The position numbers and the translations under genes were made by a program. Of a stretch of 64,000 nucleotides of DNA, positions 8,773 through 12,745 are shown in pieces (position 1 is the stretch's first letter; each line of letters begins with the position of its first letter). The notes below the pieces were generated by a model. The model saw only the letters and a list, made by a program, of their open reading frames with translations, was not told where the DNA came from and ran no database searches. This stretch comes from Pseudomonas laurylsulfatiphila (GTDB lineage: Bacteria; Pseudomonadota; Gammaproteobacteria; Pseudomonadales; Pseudomonadaceae). The DNA is taken from the NCBI RefSeq assembly GCF_002934665.1, contig NZ_NIRS01000001.1, positions 372,001 through 436,000 of the forward strand, given 5' to 3'.

Positions 8773-9687
8773 CTACAGCTCAATACTCATGCCGTCATAA
8801 GCCACTTCGATCCCCCGCCGCTCCAGCAAGGCCCGCTCGGCCGAGTCTTCATCGAGAATGGGATTGGTGTTGTTGATGTGGATCAGCACCTTACGCTGGC
8901 GGTTGAAACCCTCCAGCACGTCCAGCATCCCGCCGGGGCCGCTTTGTGGGAGGTGCCCCATTTCGCTGCCCAGGCTCTGGCCGACTTCGCAAATACGCAT
9001 CTCGTCGTCGCGCCACAGGGTGCCGTCCAGCAGCAGGCAATCGGCACGCTGCATCCAGCCCAGCACTTCATCGTCGATTCGGCCAAGGCCCGGCGCATAG
9101 AACAGCGACGCGCCGCTGCGCAGGTCTTCAACGAACAGGCCAATGGTGTCGCCCGGTTGCGGGTTGCCGCGATTGGGCGAATACGGCGGCGCGTTGCTCA
9201 CCAGGGGAATCGCGCGAAACTGCAAATGCTCGCAGGCCGCTATGCCGAACGGCTGACGATCGAGGCCGACCGGTTGCCAGTGCAGCCCGCCGTTCCAGTG
9301 TCCGAGCATGGTGAACAGCGGGAAACCGCTGCTCAGGTCCTGATGCACACGCTCGGTGCACCAGACGTCATGGGGGCAGCCTTCGCGCAGGCTGAGCAAA
9401 CCGGTGCAGTGGTCGATCTGGCTGTCCAGCAGCACGATGCCGGCGATGGCGCTGTCACGCAGGCGCCGCGCCGGTTGCAGTGGTGCAAAACTCTCGAGTT
9501 GCGCGCGAATGTCCGGTGACGCGTTGCACAGCACCCACTCCACACCGTTGTCACTCAAGGCAATCGACGACTGCGTACGACGCTGGGCCCGCAGGCTGCC
9601 ATTGCGCACACCGGCGCACTGGCGGCAGTTGCAGTTCCACTGCGGGAAACCACCGCCAGCGGCGGAACCGAGAACGCGGATGTGCAT
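8773..9687 (-). CDS. pqqB: PQQ biosynthesis protein PqqB
   Basis: A 304-aa metallo-beta-lactamase-fold protein beginning [19 protein letters not shown], the conserved PqqB N-terminus with a CxCxxC cluster (NCNCRQC). Known role in the pathway: hydroxylation of the tyrosine-derived part of the cross-linked intermediate. The start at 9687 is chosen because it gives this conserved N-terminus and has GGAG upstream; the frame is open a little further. It follows pqqA after 55 bp. Confidence 0.95.
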
Positions 9688-9742
9688 GGCGGATGCTCCA
9701 GGAGGCAGGTCCGGCCAACCCATCGGCTGGCCGGGTGATCAT

Positions 9743-9957: not shown

Positions 9958-9966
9958 TGTGGGAGC
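9958..9966. repeat. Left half of a REP split by the IS110 element
   Basis: TGTGGGAGC is the first nine bases of a REP. Joined to 11117 onward through the shared GC, it rebuilds TGTGGGAGCGGGCTTGCTCGCGAA, an ordinary REP unit of this genome. Confidence 0.85.
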
Positions 9967-9989
9967 AACTGTCTTCCCCCTGCCACTCG

Positions 9990-10907
9990 TCACCGCCACT
10001 CGGTGCCGTCCCGCAACATGGCATTCAGCCTGATCAGTAGGATCCGCATGCAGGCGATGAGCGCGACTTTCGCGCTCTTGCCTCGCTCCCGAAGAGCGTC
10101 ATAACGTGCCTTGAAGTCTGGCTGATGACGGATCACGACCCAGCAAGACAGGTAAAGCGCACGTCTGACGCGGGCTCTGCCTCCGTAGATTTGACGTTTT
10201 CCGCTGTGATTGCCACTGTCGTCGTTGTACGGCGCAATTCCCGCCAAGGCCGCCACTTCACGACGATCAAGCGCTCCCAATTCGGGCAGATAAACCAGCA
10301 AGCTGGCTGTGGCCACCGTACCGATGCCTTTAACGGAAATGAGTCGCTCGGCTTTTTCGGCATCCAGCTCATGCATGCTCTGATGGATGGTTTTATCGAG
10401 CTGCTTGATCTGCACTTGCAGGTAGTGAACAAGACCTTTGATCGCCACGGTAACAGCGGGTAGTTGAACTTGCTGAAGCCGGCGCTTGTTGTCGTCTCGT
10501 TGCTGAACAAACTGCTCGCGCAACTGGATCAGCTCGCGCAGCGCTTCACGTTCCGGCGAAATGATCTTGTCGCGGGATGCATGCAGCACTTCAGCGAAGT
10601 CCGCCAGCACGGCCGCGTCGATGGGGTCGGTCTTGGCATTCTTGCCCATGGCCACGGCGAAGGCTCTGGCCCGGCGGGGATTGATTCTAAGCACTTTGAA
10701 GTTGGCGCCTTGCAGCGCCGCCATGACCTTGCATTCGTACCCACCGGTGGCCTCCAGCAGAACCCGGTCAACCTCGTACTGGCTCAGGCGCTCAATCAGC
10801 TCAACAAAGCCTTCTGACGTATTGGGAAGGTCAAAACCTTCACCTTGAGGTTGAACCCATACAACCAGGTTTGATTTGGAGATATCGATGCCGACCCAGG
10901 AAATCAT
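9990..10907 (-). CDS. IS110-family recombinase (transposase)
   Basis: A 305-aa intact IS110 recombinase. The RuvC-like domain (about 1-150) carries the DEDD residues D8 (VGIDISK), E52 (LLEATGGYE), D94 and D97 (KTDPIDA). A coiled-coil stretch runs about 120-185. The C-terminal Tnp domain has LISVKGIGTVAT, AALAGIAPYN and the candidate catalytic S231 in DDSGNHSGKR. The start at 10907 has AAGAGGG 8 nt upstream. No frameshift or missing catalytic residue is seen, so the enzyme looks functional. Known family behaviour: RNA-guided recombination between target and donor using a non-coding RNA from the element's own leader. Confidence 0.95.
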   Translation of the reverse strand: MISWVGIDISKSNLVVWVQPQGEGFDLPNTSEGFVELIERLSQYEVDRVLLEATGGYECKVMAALQGANFKVLRINPRRARAFAVAMGKNAKTDPIDAAVLADFAEVLHASRDKIISPEREALRELIQLREQFVQQRDDNKRRLQQVQLPAVTVAIKGLVHYLQVQIKQLDKTIHQSMHELDAEKAERLISVKGIGTVATASLLVYLPELGALDRREVAALAGIAPYNDDSGNHSGKRQIYGGRARVRRALYLSCWVVIRHQPDFKARYDALRERGKSAKVALIACMRILLIRLNAMLRDGTEWR

Positions 10908-10924
10908 GGCAAAACCCTCTTACA

Positions 10925-11095
10925 CTCAGGAGTGAGAGTGCTCTGGCTTTGCCCACGCTTGTGATTCGAGTGGCGCTCGTCCAACTGTTCGGGCTTATGG
11001 GCCAGAGTGGAAAGGTGGATGGCAGCTTGGCTCCCACACGTGCTTTTAGCACCGCGGACTCACAGCTTGCCATTCACCTCTCTCACCCCAGAGTT
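10925..11095 (-). ncRNA. Predicted bridge RNA of the IS110 element
   Basis: The minus-strand leader of the recombinase folds by eye into a short 5' hairpin plus two loops. Target loop: an outer stem (11063-11071 with 11021-11030, one bulge) encloses left guide AGTCCGC (11060-11054), a 5-bp hairpin (11052-11040) and right guide TGTGGGAGC (11038-11030). Donor loop: a 7-bp outer stem (11001-11007 with 10941-10947) encloses ACAGTTG (10988-10982), hairpin CGAG-CGCCA-CTCG (10979-10967) and CACAAGC (10963-10957). The guides pair with the interrupted REP and with the element's own ends. This is the architecture known for IS110 bridge RNAs. RNA boundaries are approximate. Confidence 0.85.
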
Positions 11096-11116
11096 TATCC
11101 CTAGATCTAGACACAA

Positions 11117-11199
11117 GCGGGCTTGCTCGCGAAAGCGGTGTGCCAGTCAACATTTCTGCTGAATGGGACTCCGTATTCGCGAGCAAGCCCGCTCCCACA
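11117..11199. repeat. Right part of the split REPIN
   Basis: GCGGGCTTGCTCGCGAA at 11117-11133 is the rest of the interrupted REP. Its inverted partner TTCGCGAGCAAGCCCGCTCC and following bases are intact at 11176-11199. Confidence 0.88.
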
Positions 11200-11224
11200 T
11201 TTTGGTTTGTGGTGTTTTTGCGGG

Positions 11225-12745
11225 TTAGAAGAACCCCAGCGGATTGATGTCGTAGCTCACCAGCAGGTTCTTGGTCTGCTGATAATGATCGAGCATCATC
11301 TTGTGGTTTTCCCGGCCGACGCCGGACTTCTTGTAGCCGCCGAACGCCGCATGCGCCGGGTACAGGTGGTAGCAGTTGGTCCACACCCGCCCGGCCTTGA
11401 TCGCCCGGCCCATGCGATAGGCGCGGTTGATGTCGCGGGTCCACAGGCCGGCGCCGAGGCCGAACTCGCTGTCATTGGCAATCGCCAGGGCTTCGGCTTC
11501 GTCCTTGAAGGTGGTGACACCCACCACCGGGCCGAAGATTTCTTCCTGGAACACGCGCATCTTGTTGTGGCCCTTGAGCAGGGTCGGCTGGATGTAGTAA
11601 CCGCTGGACAGGTCGCCCTCCAGACGCTCGGCCGCGCCGCCGGTGAGCAGTTCGGCGCCCTCCTCCTGGGCAATGGTCAGGTACGAGAGGATTTTGTCGT
11701 ACTGCTGCTCGGACGCCTGGGCGCCGACCATGGTCTCGGTGTCCAGCGGGTTGCCGCGCTTGATCCTGGCGATCTTCTTCATCACCTCGGCCATGAACGG
11801 CTCGTAGATCGACTCCTGCACCAGCGCCCGGGACGGGCAGGTGCAGACTTCGCCCTGGTTGAAGAACGCCAGCACCAGGCCTTCGGCGGCTTTTTCGATG
11901 AACGCCGGTTCCGCGTTCATGATGTCCTCGAAGAAGATGTTCGGCGACTTGCCGCCCAGTTCGACGGTGCTCGGGATGATGTTCTCGGCGGCGCAATGCA
12001 TGATGTGCGCGCCCACCGGGGTCGAACCGGTGAAGGCGATCTTGGTGATGCGCTTGCTGGTGGCCAGGGCCTCGCCGGCTTCGCGACCGAAGCCCTGGAC
12101 GATGTTCAGCACGCCCGCTGGCAGCAGGTCAGCGATCAGCTCGGCGAACACCATGATCGACAACGGCGTTTGCTCGGCAGGCTTGAGCACGATGCAGTTG
12201 CCGGCGGCGAGCGCCGGGGCGAGTTTCCAGGCGGCCATCAGCAGCGGGAAGTTCCACGGAATGATCTGTCCGACCACGCCCAGGGGCTCATGGAAGTGAT
12301 AGGCCGTGGTCAGCTCGTTGATCTCGGCAGCCCCGCCTTCCTGGGCACGGATGCAGCCGGCGAAGTAACGGAAGTGGTCGGCTGCCAGCGGTACGTCGGC
12401 GTTCAGGGTTTCGCGCACGGCCTTGCCGTTGTCCCAGGTTTCGGTGACGGCCAGGACCTCAAGGTTCTGCTCGATGCGGTCGGCGATTTTCAGCAGCACC
12501 AGGGAGCGGTCCTGGGCCGAGGTCTTGCCCCAGGCGTCGGCAGCGGCATGGGCGGCGTCGAGGGCCTTGTCGATGTCGGCGGCGCTGGAGCGCGGGAACT
12601 CGGCGATCACTTCACCATTGACCGGCGAGGTGTTGGTGAAGTACTCGCCATTGATCGGGGCAACGAACTCGCCACCGATAAAGTTGCCGTAGCGCGGTTT
12701 GAAAGTAATGACGGCGCCTGGGGTTCCGGGTTGTGCGTAGATCAT
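11225..12745 (-). CDS. NAD-dependent aldehyde dehydrogenase of the quinoprotein alcohol pathway (ExaC/PedI type)
   Basis: A 506-aa class I/II-like aldehyde dehydrogenase of normal length. Expected residues are present: the PWNF motif near 163-166, general base E262 (VELGGKSPN) and nucleophile C301 in [10 protein letters not shown]. Known role of the orthologues beside exaA/pedH: oxidation of acetaldehyde and other aldehydes produced by the periplasmic quinoprotein dehydrogenase, in the cytoplasm. The start at 12745 ([10 protein letters not shown]) fits the family N-terminus. Upstream lie a long hairpin (12803-12850) and a TAGTAT -10-like box on the minus strand. Confidence 0.93.

Follow-up and report, generated by a model that had tools for sequence, protein, structure and literature searches.

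The question that this locus raises is how an insertion sequence finds the one position at which it enters a REP. The window, by which we mean the whole 64,000-nucleotide stretch analyzed here (Pseudomonas laurylsulfatiphila, contig NZ_NIRS01000001.1, positions 372,001 to 436,000), contains an IS110-group element inserted in such a repeat. Each half of the interrupted REP is matched by a stretch of the element's leader, and among relatives these stretches change with the target, so that the RNA predicted from the leader likely directs insertion. On sequence evidence, it is very probable that the leader encodes a bridge RNA whose target loop corresponds to both REP halves and steers the recombinase to REPs. 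The element and its gene occupy the following positions:

9966-11115, minus strand: IS110-group insertion sequence of 1150 bp, with 8 genomic copies
9990-10907, minus strand: IS110 transposase (recombinase) of 305 amino acids, with DEDD domain PF01548 and Transposase_20 domain PF02371

The transposase is the sole gene of the element. Both of its domains score above the Pfam cut-offs, and the protein also falls above cut-off into NCBIfam NF033542, "IS110 family RNA-guided transposase". Over residues 3-301 it is homologous to the recombinases of IS621 (8wt6, E=1.5e-27) and ISCro4 (9t56, E=3e-28). The motif D230-S231-G232 is invariant among five aligned transposase proteins, and S231 is taken by its position as the catalytic serine; a DEDD RuvC-like domain joined to a Transposase_20 domain with a conserved serine is the architecture of the IS110 group. 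The leader is 208 nt long and the right end, from stop codon to element end, comprises 24 bp. The predicted RNA lies upstream of the gene, in contrast to the IS1111 group, where it lies downstream and is accompanied by subterminal inverted repeats. The eight copies in the genome are 99-100% identical, and the six that were measured are all 1150 bp long with 0-4 differences from the window copy. The closest named relative found belongs to Pseudomonas sp. TH10 (97%), and a plasmid search returned no close relative, with weak matches in five Shinella records. Of the two neighbors in the window, the one at 8773-9723 is presumably a PqqB-like gene and the one at 11225-12745 an aldehyde-dehydrogenase-like gene. 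Three further loci (L009, L010, and L011; G000:C6:337827-338021 and C2:70351-70389) hold right-end fragments, matched over 39-60 bp and fused to a REP head, with neither left end nor gene; we read them as relics of insertion or abortive events.

At the insertion site, the two halves of the REP and the two copies of the core are arranged as follows:

9958-9963, plus strand: right-target half of the interrupted REP, TGTGGG (CCCACA on the element strand), matched by the right target guide
9964-9965, plus strand: core dinucleotide copy 1, AG (CT on the element strand), placed by relatives with other REP letters and by an empty-site alignment showing a 2-bp repeat
11116-11117, plus strand: core dinucleotide copy 2, AG, placed by the same relatives and the empty-site alignment
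11118-11138, plus strand: left-target half of the interrupted REP, CGGGCTTGCTCGCGAAAGCGG, from sequence and the empty-site alignment

The insertion point is AGCCCG-CT-CCCAC in 8/8 copies, with differing surroundings. All eight copies have the left junction GCAAGCCCG-CT-TGTGTC and the right junction GACAGTTG-CT-CCCAC, with A as the next base in seven. A preliminary description of this DNA had taken the dinucleotide flanking the element to be GC. Three bases (AGC on the plus strand) are common to both junctions in all eight copies, which for this reason are unable to place the core. The junctions of three relatives located in REPs with a different base beside the core (L066, L068, and L070) read ...CCCC-CT-TGTG on the left and ...GTTG-CT-CCCACA on the right. 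It follows that the core is CT on the element strand (AG on the plus strand), and that the G beside CT at the right junction is the element's own; GC was rejected on this evidence.

It might be supposed that the copies owe their position to homologous recombination between REP clusters, with the REP as a passive site. REPs are indeed repeated and could recombine. Against this, the outer flanks of the eight copies differ, and their outer REP stems are of two kinds (GCGAGCAAG and GCGGGCAAG). It is these differing flanks, as judged by eye, that lead us to treat the copies as separate insertions. Furthermore, the loci of six relatives (G002, G004, G005, G006, G009, and G010) were compared for empty sites. 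An uninterrupted GTGGGAGCGGGCTTGC occupies the same place in G002 and is 2 bases shorter than the joined flanks, while G005 and G010 carry at the empty locus a REP of the GAGC subtype described below. The locus in G004 has a different REP and aligns poorly, and in G006 and G009 the alignment fails across the junction. An empty site with its flanks in place, along with an insertion point that is base-exact in other genera with other REPs, leaves passive recombination with next to no probability.

Our preferred reading, that an RNA specifies the site, rests on the following parts of the leader:

10934-11087, minus strand: predicted bridge RNA body, 143.6 bits against a covariance model from 15 other elements
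11054-11060, minus strand: predicted left target guide AGTCCGC, pairing with the bottom strand of AGCCCGC with one U.G
11030-11038, minus strand: predicted right target guide TGTGGGAGC, pairing with the top strand of GCTCCCACA
10982-10988, minus strand: predicted left donor guide ACAGTTG, identical to letters in the right end GACAGTTG (sequence comparison)
10957-10963, minus strand: predicted right donor guide CACAAGC, complementary to GCTTGTG at the core and left end (sequence comparison)

The preliminary description had located TGTGGGAGC at 11038-11030 and AGTCCGC at 11060-11054 on the minus strand, opposite REP halves at 9958-9966 and 11117-11123 and with a single U.G in the left guide, and we recovered the same letters and coordinates. 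An exact 9-mer on either strand of the 209-nt leader is expected 0.0015 times. Both target guides lie, as had been claimed, within one closed internal loop, where they flank a GTGC/GCAC hairpin. The leader also has a donor loop, which was absent from the earlier account. The element has in its long non-coding left end a structured RNA with two internal loops, one of them corresponding to the target and the other to the element's own ends, with one core common to both, as is characteristic of the IS110 group.

Comparison among relatives points to a conserved fold. An alignment of 18 leaders, hand-picked from the loci of relatives plus the window, yielded a consensus with target-loop and donor-loop stem-loops, with compensatory changes in 19 of 40 pairs. 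The window's leader is more stable than 200 of 200 shuffles (z -4.1), and a 176-nt piece of it was equaled by a single shuffle in 200 (z -3.8). From 15 of the 18 leaders we built a covariance model; the window element, L017, and L052 fell outside it and so served as held-out tests. This model, made entirely from other elements, recognized the window leader on the transposase strand with E=5e-28, and the best match on the other strand reached 16.8 bits (E 0.13). The donor-guide letters ACAGTTG and ACAAGC are invariant across the 18 leaders, which indicates conservation and is no test of covariation. Taken together, the site shared by eight copies, the covariation described below, the donor loop, and the covariance model support the original proposal that this IS110 leader is a bridge RNA aimed at the interrupted REP. 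One relative, L071, has a repeated piece of leader.

The distribution of REPs in the genome also bears on the left guide. There are 161 intact GTGGGAGCGGGCNTGC sites (GGGC subtype), in keeping with the earlier statement that the target occurs many times in this genome, and 762 intact GTGGGAGCGAGCNTGC sites (GAGC subtype); the reversed-pattern control gave 0. The GAGC subtype is almost five times commoner and has the same right half, yet it is unoccupied, and all eight copies are in GGGC sites. If both subtypes were equal targets and the insertions separate, the chance of such an outcome would be about 1e-6. The subtypes differ at a base that the left guide would read, with a guide C opposite A in GAGC. 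This is a genome in which the left guide appears to separate some 160 matching repeats from some 760 similar ones. If the guide reading is true, a donor junction would recombine with GTGGGAGCGGGCTTGC and not with GTGGGAGCGAGCTTGC.

An alternative is that the transposase itself reads the REP as DNA, by its sequence or its hairpin, and that the likeness of the leader is a captured or selected regulatory copy. REPs are palindromic, and they are also targets of elements outside the IS110 group, such as ISPsy8 (IS3) and ISRm22 (IS4) (PMC1525189). A protein of this kind would not explain why copies are found in GGGC and not in the commoner GAGC, which mismatches the left guide. Nor would it explain why guides covary with targets among relatives in Pseudomonas and Xanthomonadaceae, across different REP stems, an inserted base, and integron attC-like sites. 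We therefore consider this alternative very unlikely.

The covariation was scored for each guide separately. For the left guide (16 entries, 7 positions, wobbles allowed), cognate pairs matched at 5.71 of 7 positions compared with 4.40 for non-cognate pairs, and none of 200,000 permutations was as high; without wobbles the values were 5.29 and 3.58, again with 0/200,000. For the right guide (19 entries), the corresponding values were 5.54 of 6 and 4.26, with one permutation in 200,000 as high, though all of these permutation counts overstate the evidence because related elements are not independent. Two of the 16 left-guide entries differ only in an unscored eighth base. That set omits L021/L077 (at a contig edge with 4 flank bases), the L154/L155 type, L152, and the attC type, whose register is off by two bases. 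The right-guide set has one entry per element type, several with the same guide, and omits same-guide loci, L071, L081, and L152. At guide positions -7 and -6 the match barely exceeds chance. Poor left-guide fits were kept in, namely L022/L083 (4/7, transposase truncated) and L082 (4/7), wobbles included; L069, L073, and L081 fit at 5/7, likewise with wobbles.

Individual elements illustrate the pattern. The guide AAGCCAG of L080 has the target AAGCCAG, and L072 has AAGCCG. In all six copies of the L020 type, the guide ATTCG accompanies an ATTCG target, and in one of them, L041, ATTCGC is all that is left of the REP on the left side. The left-flank context beyond the guide match can thus be lost, which argues further against a protein that reads the REP. 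In L079, an extra base is found in the right guide and in the right target alike. In the sister pairs L020/L072 and L054/L021, a difference in the guide is accompanied by one in the target. A transposase tree (24 of 25 rows, L078 having been dropped since no open frame was found) requires 5 changes among the three target classes, at least 3 of them forced by well-supported branches. The preliminary description had named the same guides at unrelated sites as the finding that would speak against it, and had looked to an alignment of all copies with their flanks. What emerged from that alignment is a set of identical guides and junctions in 8/8 copies, all in the specified REP, and guides that covary with targets in diverged relatives. 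Together the relatives form a natural series in which a single bridge-RNA scaffold has been re-aimed, at several REP stems, at an attC-like site, and with one base inserted in guide and target, and such a series shows which guide positions are used in nature.

Hosts of relatives contain repeats of their own. Sites of a REP-like pattern, GTRGGAGC-10-GCGA, were counted in four hosts with the reversed pattern as control: 367 in G018, 79 in G149 (Luteimonas granuli), 47 in G151 (Arenimonas caeni), and 408 in G211, against 2-5 in the controls. The elements of G018 and G151 are located in these repeats, although in the G151 element, L082, only 4 of 7 left-guide positions fit. Counts with an 11-base spacer, which is the wrong spacer for most hosts, were 17, 8, and 44 in G150, G152, and G153 (controls 6, 1, and 3). 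L081, from a metagenome-assembled genome labeled Rhizobium, is a close relative and tree sister of the Arenimonas element L082, and its contig is probably misassigned. Five elements (L154, L155, L160, L164, and L166) have the right end GACAGTTGA and, after the right guide, GAGTC where most others have GAGC; in this type, the guide base beyond the core seems to track the element's own end rather than the target.

How the RNA would be expressed is suggested by the element's ends once they are joined. Two features are involved:

9966-9968, minus strand: right-end TTG, first half of a predicted -35 box TTGCTT that spans the core in the circle (joined-end pattern)
11092-11097, minus strand: TAAACT, predicted as the -10 box of the promoter for the bridge RNA; in the circle, the -35 box is 17 nt away (joined-end pattern)

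When right and left ends were joined through the core, TAnnnT followed the -35 hexamer at exactly 17 nt in 33 of 33 resolved loci; 35 were tried, L149 and L152 were unresolved, and 3 of the 33 repeat an already counted left end. The spacer is still 17 in L020, L072, L154, and L155, whose right end has one extra base. In the integrated state, genomic bases (CCG in the window's own copies) replace the TTG. TTGCTT has 3 of 6 consensus positions, and its TTG is itself fixed by the motif used to recognize right ends. As a sequence pattern, the promoter at the junction of right end, core, and left end that marks the IS110 group is present, and it agrees with the circle-junction promoter of IS621 (PMC11208160).

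By analogy with IS621, the element would be excised as a circle. Rejoining of the right and left ends would restore the promoter (TTG, then TAnnnT at a spacer of 17) that is split upon integration, and the bridge RNA transcribed from it would bind the recombinase. Its first loop would pair with a REP, left guide to bottom strand and right guide to top strand, and its second loop with the circle junction, allowing strand exchange at the common CT core.

This account assumes that the sense strand is the guide. The opposite view, in which the antisense strand is the guide and the sense RNA is only a transposase leader, draws on the fact that complementarity to DNA is equal for both strands, and on Rfam, which matched the antisense strand only. 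In addition, the antisense RNA Asr9 of ISPpu9 is described as very stable and 4.6x more abundant than Ssr9 (PMC8450116). The bridge RNA of IS621, however, runs from the left-end junction promoter toward the recombinase gene (PMC11208160), and in the sense promoter formed by rejoining of the ends the spacer is invariably 17 nt. ISEc21 has its seekRNA upstream of tnp (PMC11187229). Singly, 15 of 18 leaders fold more stably in the sense orientation, which also argues against an antisense guide. Both strands fold with similar pair counts, the consensus reaching -50.6 kcal/mol in sense and -45.2 in antisense, and folding energy alone was not decisive as a basis for choosing the strand. We place very little credence in an antisense guide. 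The earlier assignment of the left guide to the bottom strand and the right guide to the top strand stands in its letters; the strand of the RNA is drawn from the IS621 bridge RNA and the rejoined-end promoter, complementarity being strand-neutral.

With the sense RNA as the predicted guide, the antisense strand may have a different role. Two features lie on it:

10931-11092, plus strand: antisense to the leader, a hit to Rfam RF02234 (sX15) at 48.9 bits, under the gathering cut-off of 55
10921-10926, plus strand: candidate antisense -10 box TACACT, adjoining the transposase ribosome-binding site (sequence pattern)

The sX15 family represents a Xanthomonadaceae sRNA. All eight of the window element's copies match it at 48.9-50.9 bits, short of the gathering cut-off of 55 that defines the family, and 15 of 18 relatives scanned have an antisense match (E up to 0.1), with L079, L081, and L082 above cut-off. 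Among 99 genomes from the family of Luteimonas granuli (Xanthomonadaceae), sX15 matched in 16, in 10 of them above cut-off. The 35 sX15 loci, some of which overlap, include 29 with an IS110 gene like the window's at E 1e-5 and six with none. In 28 of the 29 the gene is opposite in strand to sX15; the one departure, L161, matches weakly and on the reverse side of the L145 leader. Conversely, the bridge-RNA model matches sX15 stretches on their opposite strand (E 3e-9 to 2e-13 in L142-L149). Of 28 leaders, 27 (all but L150) have a TAnnnT box whose end lies 3-8 nt upstream of the first base of the sX15 match, at 6 nt in eight, and the -35 boxes there are only weak. Among the literature matches listed, with their partial text, none ties sX15 as an RNA to IS110, and sX15 figures as an entry in a table of RNA names.

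The best sX15 matches are in elements at attC-like sites. The strongest of these elements (L142-L147) share the left junction CTAACGC-CT-TATGTC. In L143, L144, and L147 the right junction is GACAGTTG-CT-GAATTA or GAGTTA, then a palindrome, and the right flank ends in GTTAGGC or GTTAGGT in L143, L147, L157, and L162, but not in L144. With CTAAC or GCCTAAC in the left flank, these motifs have the look of an integron attC site. Sequences that fit the attC-like site, ATAACGCCT and TAATTCAGC, are present in the leaders of L142-L145 and L147; L146 shares the right guide but differs at the left, where it reads AAAACGCGT. Intact TAACGCCTGAATTAAG was found in 6 of 9 genomes tested, with 36 occurrences in G235 that lie a few hundred bases apart. 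Targeting of attC has been described for elements of the IS1111 group (PMC11187229, PMC12444791), unlike the attC-aimed sX15 elements, which belong to the IS110 group. The antisense RNA and this attC-aimed sister group are the less expected parts of our analysis, and at the RNA level both are predictions.

An RNA of the sX15/Asr9 type likely runs antisense across the bridge RNA. In this less certain step of the model, it would start from a promoter beside the transposase start, cover the whole leader, and pair with the transposase leader as well as with the bridge RNA. On its way out of the element, antisense transcription would meet the stretch at 11118-11200, where the leftover REP half faces a second, inverted REP, so that a long hairpin is possible, followed by T-rich sequence; transcription might terminate there. 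Matches to miRNA families at 11116-11193, below cut-offs, coincide with this inverted REP pair and were taken as chance matches to a long hairpin. A longer right end with an inverted copy (GTGGGAG...GGCTGTCTT or similar) is seen in L019, L061, L062, L053, L063, L068, and, less exactly, L018. The inverted copy in this subgroup takes in the element's own end and the right half of the target (AAGACAGTTG-CTCCCAC), which would allow a hairpin across the junction of element and REP.

The core of IS621 is CT, as in the window element. IS621, an IS110-group element of E. coli, also resembles it in a homologous recombinase, a leader RNA with target loop then donor loop, a REP target, and a promoter restored at the circle junction (PMC11208160). 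Its natural target, ATCAGGCCTAC, is a different REP, which accounts for different guides (PMC11208160). In P. putida KT2440, ISPpu10 and ISPpu9 are described as having 7 copies each, which all occupy a single position in the REP and have a 2-bp repeat (PMC1525189). For ISPpu9 the repeat is AG, as at the window element (PMC8450116), and a bridge RNA of ISPpu10 has already been predicted (PMC11208160). Similarly, the targets of ISPa11 (REP) and of ISKpn4 and ISPst6 (attC), of the IS1111 group, are chosen by an element-encoded RNA (PMC11187229). The window element joins IS621, ISPpu10, and their kin as a REP-aimed bridge-RNA element.

Gomez-Garcia et al. described Asr9 as antisense to the ISPpu9 transposase leader and Ssr9 as a sense RNA behind joined B-AG-A ends, complementary to Asr9 and acting as a sponge for it (PMC8450116). 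We infer that B-AG-A would be a junction of right end, core, and left end, and Ssr9 a second bridge RNA. Among the literature matches listed since 2024 for bridge RNA, antisense, and IS110, none concerns, by title or opening of the abstract, pairing of an antisense with a bridge RNA. A broader proposal, evenly balanced in our judgment, is that this lineage encodes one RNA on each strand of the leader: a bridge RNA, made from the rejoined circle ends, and a conserved "anti-bridge" RNA (sX15, Asr9). The latter would lie over the two guide loops, mask the guide or recycle it, and regulate the transposase, with Ssr9 as a bridge RNA gene and the scaffold re-aimed repeatedly among REP classes and integron attC-like sites. 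These connections suggest that an orphan Rfam sRNA family and two sRNAs of ISPpu9 belong to bridge-RNA biology, which would make IS110 control of a guide RNA directly testable in a laboratory strain of Pseudomonas putida. Finally, one locus (L148/L158, G200:C73) has two bridge-RNA-like leaders about 730 bp apart, an arrangement that recalls asr9 and ssr9 of ISPpu9.
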